Shown: in pieces, positions 8,858 to 15,454 of the stretch
Numbering within the stretch: the stretch's first letter is position 1
Layout: every line of letters begins with the position of its first letter
IMG/VR virus record: IMGVR_UViG_3300025508_000133
Location: 1-25,907 of that record
Origin: a virus
Strand: one strand, 5' to 3'
Length of the DNA: 25,907 nucleotides
The notes under the pieces: model-generated
Seen by the model: the letters and a program-made list of their open reading frames with translations, nothing else
Told to the model about the DNA's origin: nothing
The model's database searches: none
Program-made: the position numbers and the translations under genes

Positions 8858-9931
8858 ATGAAGTACACGTTTACAAGCGAGAGTGTTAGTGCAGGTCATC
8901 CTGATAAGGTTGCCGATGCAATCTCGGATGCAATCGCTACCTATCTAATCGACTATAAGAAAGAGAATCGTGCTGCGGTCGAGACGATGGTTACTACCAA
9001 CTCAGTCACTGTTGCGGGAGAGTATCGTTCTAACAAGAGTCTCGAAGACTGTGAAACGATCGCTCGTGACGTTGTGAAAGAAATTGGTTATGAACAGGAA
9101 GGTTTTCACTGGGAGACCTTTGACTTCACCAACCATCTTCATGGACAGAGTTCTGATATCGCAATGGGTACGGACGACTTTGGTGCAGGTGATCAGGGTC
9201 TGATGTTTGGTTATGCCTGTAAGGAAACCAAAGAGTATATGCCCCTTGCAATCTCCTTGAGTCATGAGATTTTGAAGAACGTAACTAAAACTCTCCCTTA
9301 TGGCCCTGATGCGAAGGCACAGGTTTCTGTAGACTATGACGATATTGGTAAACCTGTACGAGTCAGTAAGGTTGTCTGTAGTGTTCAACACAAAGAGACC
9401 CAGAGTATTAGTTCGGTACGTAACATCGTACAGGGGTGCATTGAACGCATTCTAGAGGGTTGGGTGGACATTGATACCGAGTATCTGATCAACCCCACTG
9501 GTCAGTTCATCATTGGTGGGCCTGATGGTGATGCGGGTCTGACAGGGCGTAAGATCATTGTTGATACCTATGGTGGATACTGTCCTCACGGTGGTGGTGC
9601 GTTCTCCGGTAAGGACTGTACTAAGGTAGATCGGTCTGGTGCATACATGGCACGTTATATCGCAAAGAATATAGTACATGAGTTCGGGTTAGAGAACTGT
9701 ACTGTTCAGTTGAGTTATGCGATCGGTGTTAAAGAACCCACCAGTCTGTACGTCTATGCAGATGGCAAAGTCCGTGACGACCTCGTAGAAGAGATTAGAA
9801 GTAAGGTTGACCTTACACCCGAGGGAATCATAGATCGGTTTAAACTCTTCTCTAGAGACCTTACCCTCATGACAAACTATGGTCACTTTGGCAACAAGGA
9901 TCTGCCATGGGAGAAACTTGACCTCTTCTAG
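8858..9931 (+). CDS. metK: S-adenosylmethionine synthetase
   Basis: This 357-residue enzyme makes SAM from methionine and ATP, releasing phosphate and pyrophosphate. All core motifs are visible: GHPDKVADAISDA (residues 13-25) with the catalytic His14 and Lys17; GAGDQGLMFGYA (109-120), the hexapeptide region; GPDGDAGLTGRKIIVDTYGG (221-240); and FSGKDCTKVDRSGAYMARYI (249-268) with phosphate-binding Lys and Arg. Length is slightly below the ~384 of bacterial MetK, and nothing essential seems lost. AGAAGGAGA five bases before the ATG is the strongest ribosome site in the region and suggests high expression. A phage-borne MetK is an auxiliary metabolic gene. It may support methylation (the FkbM protein here) or offset SAM shortage; its actual use is not shown. 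Confidence 0.96.
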   Translation: MKYTFTSESVSAGHPDKVADAISDAIATYLIDYKKENRAAVETMVTTNSVTVAGEYRSNKSLEDCETIARDVVKEIGYEQEGFHWETFDFTNHLHGQSSDIAMGTDDFGAGDQGLMFGYACKETKEYMPLAISLSHEILKNVTKTLPYGPDAKAQVSVDYDDIGKPVRVSKVVCSVQHKETQSISSVRNIVQGCIERILEGWVDIDTEYLINPTGQFIIGGPDGDAGLTGRKIIVDTYGGYCPHGGGAFSGKDCTKVDRSGAYMARYIAKNIVHEFGLENCTVQLSYAIGVKEPTSLYVYADGKVRDDLVEEIRSKVDLTPEGIIDRFKLFSRDLTLMTNYGHFGNKDLPWEKLDLF

Positions 9932-10363: not shown

Positions 10364-11251
10364 ATGTCTTTTGCAAATCTAAAACGTAACCGTAGTTCAA
10401 TTGGCGACCTAGTTGCCGCCGCCACCCCCGAAACCAAGTCAGACAAGAAGTCCTATAAGGATGATCGTCAGTGGAAACCAACTGTTGATAAAGCAGGTAA
10501 TGGTTATGCTGTAGTTCGTTTCCTTCCGGGTCTTGATGGTAACGTACCTTTCGTGCGATACTGGGATCATGGTTTTAAAGGGCCTACCGGTCAATGGTAC
10601 ATCGAACGATCTTTGACTTCTATTGGTCAACAAGATCCAGTATCAGAAATGAACAGTGAGTTATGGGCAACTGAGACTGATGACAATCGTGCGATCGTTC
10701 GCGAACGTAAACGTCGTCTGCACTATGTTGCTAACATTATTGTTGAGTCCGATCCATCTAACCCTGAGAATGAAGGTAAAGTATTCCTTTATACTTTCGG
10801 TAAGAAGATCTTTGATAAGGTCATGGACATGATGCAACCACAATTCCAAGATGAAGAACCAGTAAATCCGTTCGACTTCTGGGAAGGTGCATCGTTCAAG
10901 TTGAAGATTCGAAACGTTGAAGGATATCGTAACTACGATAAGTCTGAGTTCGCATCTCCAACCCCACTGTCAGAAGACGAAGCAGAGTTAGAGTCTGTCT
11001 ACGAAAAGTTGTATGATCTAAATGAGTTTACTGATCCTGCTTCTTACAAGACTTATGATGAGTTGAAGACTCGTCTTCAGATGGTACTTGGTGAGGTTCC
11101 AAGGGCGCAGATCCCGACAGTTCAGGCGGTAGCGCTGGAAGAAGTCCGTGACCCAGCGCCAATGCGATCCAGTGCTGCTCCAGAACCTCGGGTATCTGAA
11201 GGCGACGAAGATACGATGTCATTCTTCGCCAAACTCGCAAATGAAGACTAG
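10364..11251 (+). CDS. 32: Single-stranded DNA-binding protein gp32
   Basis: This 295-residue protein is the T4-type replication and recombination SSB. The N-terminal B region SFANLKRNRSS (2-12) carries the basic motif for cooperative self-binding. The core OB fold includes YAVVRFLPG, FVRYWDHGF and GQWYIERS, and the C-terminal acidic tail ends in EGDEDTMSFFAKLANED, the part used to recruit replication proteins. Unlike T4 gp32, which has a His-Cys3 zinc site, this protein has no cysteine at all: the region normally read as CPVCE is DPVSE (about residues 91-95). It has its own promoter and a structured leader. Its stop codon overlaps that of the convergent gene (CTAG, 11248-11251). Confidence 0.95.
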   Translation: MSFANLKRNRSSIGDLVAAATPETKSDKKSYKDDRQWKPTVDKAGNGYAVVRFLPGLDGNVPFVRYWDHGFKGPTGQWYIERSLTSIGQQDPVSEMNSELWATETDDNRAIVRERKRRLHYVANIIVESDPSNPENEGKVFLYTFGKKIFDKVMDMMQPQFQDEEPVNPFDFWEGASFKLKIRNVEGYRNYDKSEFASPTPLSEDEAELESVYEKLYDLNEFTDPASYKTYDELKTRLQMVLGEVPRAQIPTVQAVALEEVRDPAPMRSSAAPEPRVSEGDEDTMSFFAKLANED

Positions 11252-12741
11252 GACGCATAGGCACTCGCACGGGTGCCATTGTTAGAGGTTGGGGATCGCA
11301 TTGATCTCCGACCTTGAACAGACTGATTGACATTTGATTGATTGGAGGAGTTCACAGAGTTGTCTTGGATTATTACTGGGGCGCTCTGTGAACTACCTAC
11401 ATTAGTAACACTCTCTGTATTGATCGCATTCGTGATCGCATTCTCTTCATTAATTGCCTGTAGTGACTCTGCATTAAACTGTTGTCGTAACTTCTCAATG
11501 TTCTCCGTAGAGACTGTACTATCACTATTGGTCGTTTCACCACCTACACTTGAAACGTTGGATGTGTCACCACCACTACTATTGGATATGAATCCAATTC
11601 CACCCGGTGCTTCCATTCCTGCATAGTTGTACACCGAATCAGGAATAGGATTCAGTTGCATCGACCCACCACCAAGAGTTTTGCCGAACACTTCAAATGA
11701 AGGTATCTCAAACTTCAATGTATCTGCTTCAGGTAACACTGACCTGACTAGGTTTTTACCAAAGTCATCAAAGCTTATCTCACCTGTAAAAAGATCCTTT
11801 ACGTTGGTGAAGAGTGTGCCAAACCAGGCATTTATGCCATTCATAATGTCCCACACACCATCGATAATAGCATCACCAAGACCTGCGAAAGTAAAGGAGT
11901 CTAATGCTTTCTCTACACCATCAAATCCAAGTAAACCTGCAAACCAACTGATAATGTCTTTGGGTATGTCTAAGAAGATTGCAAAGAAGTCCACAACCGC
12001 TTTCTGGAGACCCTTCATTACCGCTTGAATCTTTCCACCAACCCCAAAGATATTGTCGCCAGATTTTCCAAGTTCCTCAGACACGTTCGTAAAGGTTTCA
12101 TATAACGCAACAAGAGGTACAGCGAATCTACCTAGTAGTTTACCAATACCCGCCAGTACTTTCACAAAAGGACTCTGCATCAACTTTGCACCGAACTCTG
12201 TGATTGGTGCCAACATCTTCTTGATGTTATCTACAATGCCTAAACCACTGGTTGATATTCCACCAAATAGACCAGATATCTTACTACCGATGTTCTTAAA
12301 GAAGTTTCCGATTGACTTGAGTTTATCACCGATGAATCCGAATATAGACTCTATTGGTTTGAAAACGTTTACCCTAAACATCTTCTTGGTCTGTTCAACA
12401 AAACCTTTAACAAAGTCTCTTGCGAATAATGCGAGTCCCGCACCTAAAGTGATGATAGGCATTTCAATGCCTTTGTACGCTTCTTCAGGTTTCAACTTCT
12501 CCTCGTCATCTTGAGGAGCAGGTACGAGTCCATCCCTTTTCTCACGGCGTGCCTCGTCCTCAAGTGCATATTGTTTACGCACAAGACCAAGGAACGTTTC
12601 GAACTGTTCGTTGAGTAACTCAAGACCCGCGAAACTGTCACCTTCCATCTCGATCAGAATGTTAGTCCTATCGACTAACCTACCGAGAGTTTCGTTGGTG
12701 TCCATTTGTTCGAGGACTACGTCTTCAAGTGTTATTGCCAT
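11248..12741 (-). CDS. Putative tail tape-measure / structural protein
   Basis: This 497-residue protein has an N-terminal helical, charged region (residues ~1-90), a hydrophobic Gly/Phe-rich middle (MPIITLGAGLALFARDF near 94-110; further segments to ~330), and a long Ser/Asn/Gln-rich C-terminus. The layout, with a long helical protein directly after a frameshifting pair of tail-assembly genes (gp26/gp51), is what a tape measure shows in other tailed phages. In T4 that role belongs to gp29 (590 residues), to which I see no clear motif match. The start overlaps the gp51-like ORF by 17 bases. Alternative: another virion or baseplate-hub protein. Its stop overlaps the gp32 stop tail to tail. Confidence 0.55.
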   Translation of the reverse strand: MAITLEDVVLEQMDTNETLGRLVDRTNILIEMEGDSFAGLELLNEQFETFLGLVRKQYALEDEARREKRDGLVPAPQDDEEKLKPEEAYKGIEMPIITLGAGLALFARDFVKGFVEQTKKMFRVNVFKPIESIFGFIGDKLKSIGNFFKNIGSKISGLFGGISTSGLGIVDNIKKMLAPITEFGAKLMQSPFVKVLAGIGKLLGRFAVPLVALYETFTNVSEELGKSGDNIFGVGGKIQAVMKGLQKAVVDFFAIFLDIPKDIISWFAGLLGFDGVEKALDSFTFAGLGDAIIDGVWDIMNGINAWFGTLFTNVKDLFTGEISFDDFGKNLVRSVLPEADTLKFEIPSFEVFGKTLGGGSMQLNPIPDSVYNYAGMEAPGGIGFISNSSGGDTSNVSSVGGETTNSDSTVSTENIEKLRQQFNAESLQAINEENAITNAINTESVTNVGSSQSAPVIIQDNSVNSSNQSNVNQSVQGRRSMRSPTSNNGTRASAYAS

Positions 12742-12922
12742 GTTTTGCCTTCTCTTTAGCTTCTTTCTCTTCTTCCAGTGCTTGGAGCAGGAGAATGGTA
12801 TGTACCTCTTTCTCCCACGGTATCATCATATCTAGTTCAGTCAATGTATAATTATGATGCCTCTGCAACAAGAAGTTTACTTTAAAGTAATTGGAAAGTT
12901 CTTCATGTGCGAGGCATATCAA
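12725..12922 (-). CDS. 51: gp51-like tail/baseplate hub assembly ORF, likely made by frameshift
   Basis: This 65-codon ORF lies directly after gp26, where T4 has gene 51 (hub assembly catalyst). The segment LSNYFKVNFLLQRHHNYTLT followed by ELDMMIPWEKEVHTILL has the compact helical look of tail-assembly chaperone C-terminal parts, ending in a charged helix (EEEKEAKEKAKHG). It has no ATG near its 5' end and would need a TTG start without a good ribosome site. Its first codon coincides with the T8 run at the gp26 stop, in the -1 frame. I therefore read it as the C-terminal part of a gp26-gp51 fusion made by a -1 frameshift, about 293 residues in all. Independent TTG initiation is the alternative. 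Confidence 0.62.
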   Translation of the reverse strand: MICLAHEELSNYFKVNFLLQRHHNYTLTELDMMIPWEKEVHTILLLQALEEEKEAKEKAKHGNNT

Positions 12923-12928
12923 AAAAAA
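12919..12928 (-). other. Probable -1 programmed frameshift site (T8 run)
   Basis: On the minus strand gp26 ends AGT TTT TTT TGA. The eight consecutive T allow both tRNAs to slip back one base and continue TTG ATA TGC into the gp51-like frame, bypassing the stop. It resembles the -1 shifts in tail-assembly genes of many tailed phages (lambda G/GT is the model). Confidence 0.55.
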
Positions 12929-13605
12929 CTTTGCATTCCCTTTATTTCAATATCTTCTGCTGCACCACAACTCTGACACACGAAAGGTAAGTCATACTTT
13001 ACCACCGGTGAGTCTTCGAAAAACTGTGTGATCAACTTGAACTGATCCTGTGTCATAGATTCAAGGAACCCAATCACACCCTCAAACGGTTCGTCTTCGA
13101 CCTCTATCTTCTCGTCTCCACTGATCACACTCTTGATACTACTTGCAATCAGATTGAAACCTACATCTTCTCCTGCGTCAGTAGGGATATCCTGATAACT
13201 AGGATACTTCATCACTACCGTTACTGCGTCGGATATCTTAATGACCGGGTCTGCGGTCGAGTTAGATACCTTAATCTCGTTTAGTGGTATAGTCACCTTC
13301 TGTTGACTCTCACACTTAGGACACTTCAGTAGAATGTCACTGGTCTCGCCCGTTGATTTGGATCTCAACTGAATGAAGATATATTCCAGATCAAACGTGG
13401 TCAGTGATCGTACGTCAAGACCTTCTACACATGCACCTACCGTATCATGTACTGCATTCATTATCTGTTTGGGATCTTCTGATGAAGATGCCATGAGGAG
13501 GATCTTCTCCTCTTTCACTAAGTATGGTCGATATCTACACTCTTTGCCGGTAGATGGGACTGTCAAACTGTACTTGGGTGTTTCATTTAACTTCGGTAAT
13601 GCCAT
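12919..13605 (-). CDS. 26: Baseplate hub assembly protein gp26
   Basis: This 228-residue protein opens MALPKLNETPKYSLTVPSTG, then YRPYLVKEEKILLMA, the usual start of T4-type gp26 in marine phages. In T4, gp26 acts in baseplate hub formation and is followed by gene 51, as here. Two CxxC pairs, Cys95/Cys98 (CPKC) and Cys210/Cys213 (CQSC), could together hold one zinc ion. The C-terminus (KGMQSFF) is encoded by the slippery T8 run, so a fraction of ribosomes probably extends into the gp51-like frame. The neighbour order (tube protein, gp26, gp51, tape measure) suits a tail-assembly chaperone. There is only a 16-base gap from the upstream gp54-like gene. Confidence 0.82.
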   Translation of the reverse strand: MALPKLNETPKYSLTVPSTGKECRYRPYLVKEEKILLMASSSEDPKQIMNAVHDTVGACVEGLDVRSLTTFDLEYIFIQLRSKSTGETSDILLKCPKCESQQKVTIPLNEIKVSNSTADPVIKISDAVTVVMKYPSYQDIPTDAGEDVGFNLIASSIKSVISGDEKIEVEDEPFEGVIGFLESMTQDQFKLITQFFEDSPVVKYDLPFVCQSCGAAEDIEIKGMQSFF

Positions 13606-13621
13606 TATAAAGCTCCACTAA

Positions 13622-14383
13622 TTAAAATATTAAATCTGATATCTTCTTGCCAAGTTTATCAAATGTATCGTTTACTAACTTTCCTGCCTTCTGTGCCGCG
13701 TCTGTTGAGACTCCGACATTTGCATCAATACCACTTGTACGACTGCCGTTAACCTCTGTGCCAGTAAAGTACTTGTATGCGAACTCTACGGTTATTTCAC
13801 TCGTAACACCCTTCCTGTCGTCACTCAACTGTTCCTGAGTGAAGGAAATAGGATATGCGTCCTTGAGTACCCATCGGTATACCTCACGTCCAGATTGGCG
13901 TATATCCACATCTAGGGAAACGTTAACGTTGATGGGGCCAACACCAATACCTTTATTCGCATTGAGTCCTGCAAAGGAGATACCTCGATCCAACTGAGAG
14001 ATCTTAATGTCTCGCATGTAAGTCTTGGGGTATGCAATTGCAACATGACCCTCTACGTTTTCTTCGTATCGTTGAACCATAGTGTTCTGCCAGTCTTCGA
14101 TATACTGTCGAGTCAACTGATCATTAAGTACACGGAAGGTCATTGATACAGTCCCATTGGTATATCCATAGGGTACCTTGGTTTGATCCACGCCGATATT
14201 TCTTTCTACGGTCAACATGTTTCTTGAGGGCAACGTGACATTACGGACAAAGTATTCGATCGATTGTTTCTGTTCACCTGACAAATTACGTGCGGGTAAC
14301 TGAACATAGTACAGACTAGGGTTTGCATACCCTTTACCTGCGGTGATCTTTGCCTTTAAATCATCTACGTTAGGTATTCTCAT
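13622..14383 (-). CDS. 54: Tail-tube-fold baseplate protein, gp54-like
   Basis: This 253-residue protein contains the run YFVRNVTLPSRNMLTVE (about 44-60), a PYGYTNGTVSMTFRVLND strand pair (71-88) and YIEDWQNTMVQRY (93-105), a pattern typical of T4-type tail-tube-fold proteins (gp19, gp48, gp54). gp48 is encoded separately at 15511, and the length is well above that of the tail tube gp19 (163 in T4), so gp54, the tube initiator on top of the baseplate, is the best fit. T4 gp54 is 320 residues. It overlaps the upstream gene by one base and is followed after 16 bases by gp26. A gp19-like tube protein remains possible. Confidence 0.6.
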   Translation of the reverse strand: MRIPNVDDLKAKITAGKGYANPSLYYVQLPARNLSGEQKQSIEYFVRNVTLPSRNMLTVERNIGVDQTKVPYGYTNGTVSMTFRVLNDQLTRQYIEDWQNTMVQRYEENVEGHVAIAYPKTYMRDIKISQLDRGISFAGLNANKGIGVGPINVNVSLDVDIRQSGREVYRWVLKDAYPISFTQEQLSDDRKGVTSEITVEFAYKYFTGTEVNGSRTSGIDANVGVSTDAAQKAGKLVNDTFDKLGKKISDLIF

Positions 14384-14968: not shown

Positions 14969-15454
14969 CTATTTAGTCTTTTTCTTGAAAGGTTTAAGAG
15001 GTTTCAGTGGTTTTGTTGACTTGGGTAGTATCCCCATCTTACTCAGAGTCTTCTCTGTCCATATCTCGAACGTCCACCCCCGATCCAACGCATATTCCAT
15101 TGCTGCACCCCACTTGTTCATGTTCTTAACGTAGGTATATCCCTCAGTGATATACCGCTTGGTACGTCTCTGACCAGTAGGAGGACGGGTTTGTGCGTCA
15201 GGTTTAACTTCGACAAGTACCGTCTTACCATTGTTATAGGTTATCTTGAGATCCATATAGTAACGATGATACTTCTTATCCACCTCATAGAGATAGGGAA
15301 TCACCACTTCTTCACTTGACCACGACTTCACGTCTTTATTATCATCACACCAACGAAAACATTGTCGTTCCCAAAGACTACGATAAATAATAGTAGTAGG
15401 ATCTCCTTCGTATTTCTTAGTGTTTTTTGGTTTAAACTTTCCTTTATACGCCAT
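14969..15454 (-). CDS. 4: Head completion protein gp4 (nuclease-fold)
   Basis: This 161-residue protein resembles T4 gp4 and TnsA-type nuclease folds: MAYKGKFKPKNTKKYEGDPT at the N-terminus, IIYRSLWERQCFRWCDDN (22-39) with the Glu of the WE motif, WSSEEVVIPY (45-54), then YYMDLKITYNNGKTVLVEVKP (65-85) in which Asp68, Glu82 and Lys84 fit a PD-(D/E)XK site. The C-terminus is Lys/Pro-rich (KSTKPLKPLKPFKKKTK), as DNA-binding tails are. In T4, gp4 acts after packaging and before tail joining. It heads the minus-strand operon, divergent from gp48 with 56 bases between them. Confidence 0.88.
   Translation of the reverse strand: MAYKGKFKPKNTKKYEGDPTTIIYRSLWERQCFRWCDDNKDVKSWSSEEVVIPYLYEVDKKYHRYYMDLKITYNNGKTVLVEVKPDAQTRPPTGQRRTKRYITEGYTYVKNMNKWGAAMEYALDRGWTFEIWTEKTLSKMGILPKSTKPLKPLKPFKKKTK

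Follow-up and report, generated by a model that had tools for sequence, protein, structure and literature searches.

A probable -1 frameshift signal joining gp26- and gp51-type reading frames of a tail assembly chaperone in an uncultured T4-like marine virus

In the genome of an uncultured T4-like marine virus, a gp26-like gene terminates on a run of eight T's, directly at which a small gp51-type ORF opens in the -1 frame. This raises the question how the small ORF is translated and whether its product is a protein in its own right or the C-terminal part of a longer form of the gp26-like protein. An initial annotation proposed that the two are joined by a -1 frameshift on the T run, in the layout of the G/GT genes of phage lambda. 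The latter encode tail assembly chaperones with a -1 frameshift, the short form coating the tape measure and the extension recruiting the tube protein. Comparison with related genomes establishes the slip site, its register, its stimulatory elements, selection on the extension and homology to T4 gp26/gp51. On this basis we consider it highly likely that this locus specifies a short and a long form of a tail assembly chaperone with one start, of which the long form would be generated by a -1 slip on U_UUU_UUU aided by an anti-Shine-Dalgarno (anti-SD) contact and a stem. The features concerned all lie on the minus strand of the window, i.e. the whole stretch of 25,907 nucleotides that was analysed:

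13622..14383, minus strand: tail-tube-like protein, immediately upstream of the gp26-like gene; phrog_45 (tail tube, E 9e-32) and PF06841 (E 7.8e-6, just below the Pfam cut-off)
12919..13605, minus strand: gp26-like short form (TAC-N), 228 aa, TGA stop at 12921..12919; PF12322, phrog_150
12936..12943, minus strand: Shine-Dalgarno-like element AAAGGGAA, with 8 nt from its GGGA to the slip heptamer
12922..12928, minus strand: slippery heptamer T_TTT_TTT (X_XXY_YYZ), Phe codons in the P and A sites, register kept in relatives
12857..12917, minus strand: putative stimulatory RNA structure, stem ATGCCTC (12917..12911)/GAGGCAT (12863..12857) with inner helices and a 4-nt spacer; z-score of the minimum free energy -4.2 to -4.9
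12725..12922, minus strand: -1 frame extension (TAC-C), 65 codons (LICLAHEE...HGNNT), C-terminal part of a predicted 293-aa fusion; phrog_634
11248..12741, minus strand: large ORF of 497 aa, tape-measure candidate, its ATG overlapping the end of the extension; weak PHROG matches

The gp26-like ORF matches Pfam family PF12322 (T4_baseplate) with an E-value of 8.5e-61 and 205.9 bits, compared to a gathering cut-off of 24.5, and phrog_150 (baseplate hub) with an E-value of 1e-63. A confident AlphaFold2 model of its product (pLDDT 91.6) was compared with known structures, and among 999 chains aligned to residues 1-95 the top three were 3FGX (Z 8.0), 2OB9 (Z 7.5) and 3KLU (Z 7.2), followed by the next unrelated chain at Z 4.7; scores of 7 to 8 fall in the middling range of the tool and can reflect a common arrangement. 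3FGX and 3KLU (YqbN) are, we assume, TAC-like. Since a Foldseek search with the gp26 model alone gave no match with E < 0.1, this fold likeness is taken as support and not as proof.

The 3' end of the gp26-like ORF reads ATG CAA AGT TTT TTT TGA, with the eight T's at 12928..12921, so that the initial annotation was right in both the coordinates and the frame relation of the two ORFs. The -1 frame of the extension is open for only 25 nt ahead of the gp26 stop, its first ATG is codon 32 of 65, in agreement with the claim that none lies near its start, and its sole nominal start, the TTG at 12922, sits inside the slip site. The predicted junction, ...MQSFF/LICLAHEELSNYF..., is the one proposed at the outset (SFF followed by LICLAHEE). 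The -1 ORF matches phrog_634, a gp51-type 'hub assembly catalyst' family, with an E-value of 1.3e-19.

The first check that had been suggested was to look for the same slippery run and frame relation in related phages. Relatives were chosen by gp26 peptides excluding the slip site and reduced to a non-redundant set of 50 sequences (<80% identical), all 50 of which carry T_TTT_TT[T/C] in the same register (30 TTTTTTT and 20 TTTTTTC), as do all analysed loci with a complete junction. The codon preceding Phe-Phe ends in T in 50 of 50 cases compared to 28 expected from codon usage (log10 P = -13.3, an indicative value that assumes independence and ignores shared ancestry), and the first Phe codon at the slip is always TTT, compared to 64% elsewhere (the P value likewise ignores shared ancestry). 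The same slip site is present in the isolate phages phiM9, phiN3, ZPAH1, D482, ACP17, DLP_6, P-SSM2 and ACG-2014d and in a more distant contig set, while scans with the gp26 of Vibrio phages K475 and D482 returned no related contigs. A backward slip of the ribosome by one base on the T run is very probable.

Selection acts on the extension from the slip onward, and in all 50 non-redundant relatives the conserved part of the -1 ORF begins there. Over its 31 pre-ATG codons, pN/pS is 0.00 to 0.02 in four comparisons of the window with its closest relatives, and by this measure the extension is protein-coding and under purifying selection. Directly after the slip, relatives encode L, R, Y, S or W, and because of this variation no start codon is conserved at the slip. 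In cyanophage records, the gp51 C-domain is annotated from an internal ATG (S-CAM22, L083:3262-3399) or left unannotated (ACG-2014d, L092:1504-1692), and the frameshift is missed in both. The analysis indicates that 'gp51' genes listed on their own are in fact extensions reached by frameshifting, which leaves the annotation of many cyanophages and marine myoviruses incomplete.

Next to the heptamer, two further elements bear the marks of selection. Upstream, the anti-SD duplex energy in the 50 relatives reaches a z-score of about -7 to -10 compared to synonymous recoding, versus 0.3 +/- 1.7 (minimum -2.7) at other, farther-upstream positions. Downstream, 60-nt windows starting 3-6 nt past the heptamer have a mean z-score of the minimum free energy (MFE) of -1.5 to -1.8 over the 50 relatives, and the same-placed windows in the virus itself score -3.2 to -4.9, compared to about 0 for most windows elsewhere. 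Compared to synonymously recoded versions of the extension, the mean z-score is -1.49 +/- 0.26, with 18 of the 50 relatives at p <= 0.05 versus none of the 50 for the next window downstream. The ATGCCTC/GAGGCAT stem is 98% paired in 8 relatives, compared to 27-52% when slid, and contains one compensatory change; RNAalifold reports five pairs with two-sided changes. Other lineages have different stems in the same place (GCATTAGGGCA/TGCCCTAATGC in L035 and TGCTGAACCA/TGGTTCAGCA in L074). As the downstream stem reaches significance in roughly one lineage in three, this virus among them, and about two thirds lack a significant one, it is not universal; an Rfam search gave no match. Synonymous recoding shows both the SD-like element and the stem to be under selection, and together they are the further two parts of the classic bacterial -1 signal. 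This evidence renders the site amenable to a standard reporter.

The relation to T4 is more intricate than initially described. Genes 26 and 51 of T4 are indeed adjacent, yet they lie on opposite strands and are divergently transcribed, and gp51, treated as one of two separate proteins, is itself the counterpart of the long form. Both T4 proteins match PF12322. In T4 gp51 (249 aa), residues 1-201 are gp26-like (PF12322, E 3.9e-52) and residues 202-246 match the small -1 ORF (hhalign of the ORF to the gp51 C-terminus, E 1.2e-7), so that the downstream ORF, named gp51 in the initial annotation, equals just the last ~45 residues of that protein. A profile of the predicted fusions aligns with T4 gp51 up to residue 246 (hhalign E 2e-19), placing the frameshift junction at about gp51 200/201. 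Given this collinearity, gp51 would be the long form and gp26 the short form in T4, which thus has two genes where this virus would use a frameshift. A Foldseek search with a T4-type gp51 model gave nothing usable. T4 gp28 was considered as a further gp26 paralogue and dropped: its phrog_1140 match is weak (E 9e-4) and BLASTP found no similarity to T4 gp51.

Could the small ORF instead be a separate protein without any fusion, initiated on its own at the TTG of position 12922 or through translational coupling? Genome annotations of cyanophages and rhizobial phages list it as a gene of its own, and some relatives (D482, K475) have a TAATG stop-start overlap. In the virus studied here, however, the late first ATG and the position of the TTG inside the slip site speak against such a start, as does the distance of about 14 nt between the SD-like element and this TTG. 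Moreover, the equivalent codon in relatives is usually not a start codon, conservation begins at the slip rather than at a start codon, and the fused form is a single protein in T4, all of which makes separate initiation improbable.

Still less probable is transcriptional slippage, by which RNA polymerase would slip on the T run and yield mRNAs with an altered number of U's. Eight T's in a row could suffice for a degree of polymerase slippage, but 20 of the 50 non-redundant relatives have TTTTTTC and hence six T's only, and neither a ribosomal register nor an mRNA structure would be needed under this explanation. Homopolymers are also typical sites of indel errors, whence the notion that the junction reflects a sequencing or assembly error or a decayed gene; this is refuted by comparison, given that about 80 independent metagenome contigs, as well as isolate genomes, share the arrangement and that the extension is under purifying selection, and we give it hardly any credence. 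Ribosomal frameshifting at the heptamer thus stands as the preferred explanation.

A number of relatives have other layouts. In Ackermannviridae, the 3' end of gp26 (L106-L123, e.g. L109:2786-2830) reads GAR ATT TTC ATY TAA T[TG]T TTG and is devoid of a slippery heptamer; conservation of the -1 ORF starts at the junction, with 15 of the 17 loci listed lacking an ATG, GTG or TTG until a GTG ~12 codons in. The C-domain of this family could possibly be made from an AUU start, through a non-canonical slip or by some other mechanism. Vibrio phage D482 (L089:3319) has both the slip heptamer and the TAATG overlap, and Vibrio phage K475 (L087:3223) the overlap only; these layouts may be intermediate between frameshifting and separate translation.

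The order of tube-like gene, chaperone and large ORF is in line with the proposed G/GT-like layout, and the tape-measure identity of the next ORF, also proposed, draws on position, size and similarity. This large ORF matches PHROG tape-measure families weakly (E 1e-6 to 7e-3), and its counterpart in relatives occupies the same position and varies in length, which hints at a tape measure; a profile comparison with T4 gp29 gave no match. Homology of the large ORF to T4 gp48 or gp27 was likewise considered and rejected, as no profile match was found. Elsewhere in the window, a 357-aa ORF (8858-9931, plus strand) resembles S-adenosylmethionine synthetase as judged by its sequence, a metabolic gene near phage structural genes, and a T4 gp4-type head closure protein (14969-15454, minus strand; phrog_218, head closure) matches the TnsA-like endonuclease N-terminal Pfam domain (E 2.4e-18).

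Taken together, a G/GT-type chaperone pair made by -1 frameshifting is the best reading of the locus, supported by the heptamer and its register, selection without a start codon, the stimulatory elements, gene order and fold similarity. Most ribosomes would reach the gp26 stop and release the 228-aa short form (TAC-N). A minority, held by the upstream anti-SD contact and the downstream stem, would move back by one base on U_UUU_UUU, read the -1 ORF and so produce the long form (TAC-NC), a fusion of 293 aa. If the roles follow those of lambda G/GT, the tape measure would be coated by the short form and the tube protein recruited by the extension. That slippage occurs, its rate and the chaperone function are what we infer. 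More tentatively, and with a probability that we would put a little below even, the chaperone frameshift of T4-like phages might be a full three-part signal (SD-like element, U_UUU_UUY and stem), of which the stem arose repeatedly, each time with another sequence, in separate marine lineages and which was later replaced, in T4 by gene duplication (gp26 and gp51) and in Ackermannviridae by an unexplained heptamer-free junction. If so, the chaperone switch would offer a natural series on the gain and loss of recoding.

The abstract of a 2022 study by Vladimirov, Gautam and Davidson reportedly names T4 genes 26 and 51. Tail assembly chaperones of T4-like phages encoded by these genes are the subject of that study (Virology 2022, 566:9-15, PMID 34826709), as cited in PMC10885494 and PMC12846349; according to the latter, it describes poly-T slip signals within the TAC-N genes of T4-like phages, and both citing papers mention that some of these phages have distinct genes for the short and the fused long form. 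The function of gp51 was called unknown in a 2010 review. The tie of T4 gp26/gp51 to the tape-measure chaperone system that the initial annotation suggested is therefore correct as an idea but not new: as represented in the citing papers, the frameshift scheme including T4 gp26/gp51 is already published, and this virus adds a lineage and quantified stimulatory elements. That T4 gp51 is collinear with the fusion lends support to the interpretation of 2022, as so cited, in which this 'hub assembly catalyst' represents a tape-measure chaperone in its long form. A known mechanism is hereby extended to a large uncultured marine lineage.

The signal in E. coli dnaX consists of an SD-like element, an X_XXY_YYZ heptamer and a stem a few nt downstream. 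The site described here has this three-part architecture, but it uses poly-U instead of poly-A, serves an unrelated gene and has a stem that is not conserved in every lineage. The HK97 chaperone 2OB9, 3FGX and YqbN (3KLU) align with gp26 residues 1-95 (Z 7.2-8.0), at an identity of 2-12%, and gp26 has about 130 further residues. With lambda G/GT, the locus has in common the order of tube protein, short form, -1 extension and large ORF and a long form that would be a -1 slip fusion; it differs in the U_UUU_UUY slip site and in a longer, Cys-rich C-terminal part of gp26, the likeness being one of layout. Compared to the T4-like chaperones of 2022, as far as they are covered in the citing papers, the two protein forms and the homologues are the same, whereas the lineage, uncultured and marine, is new and the SD-like element and stem are quantified.
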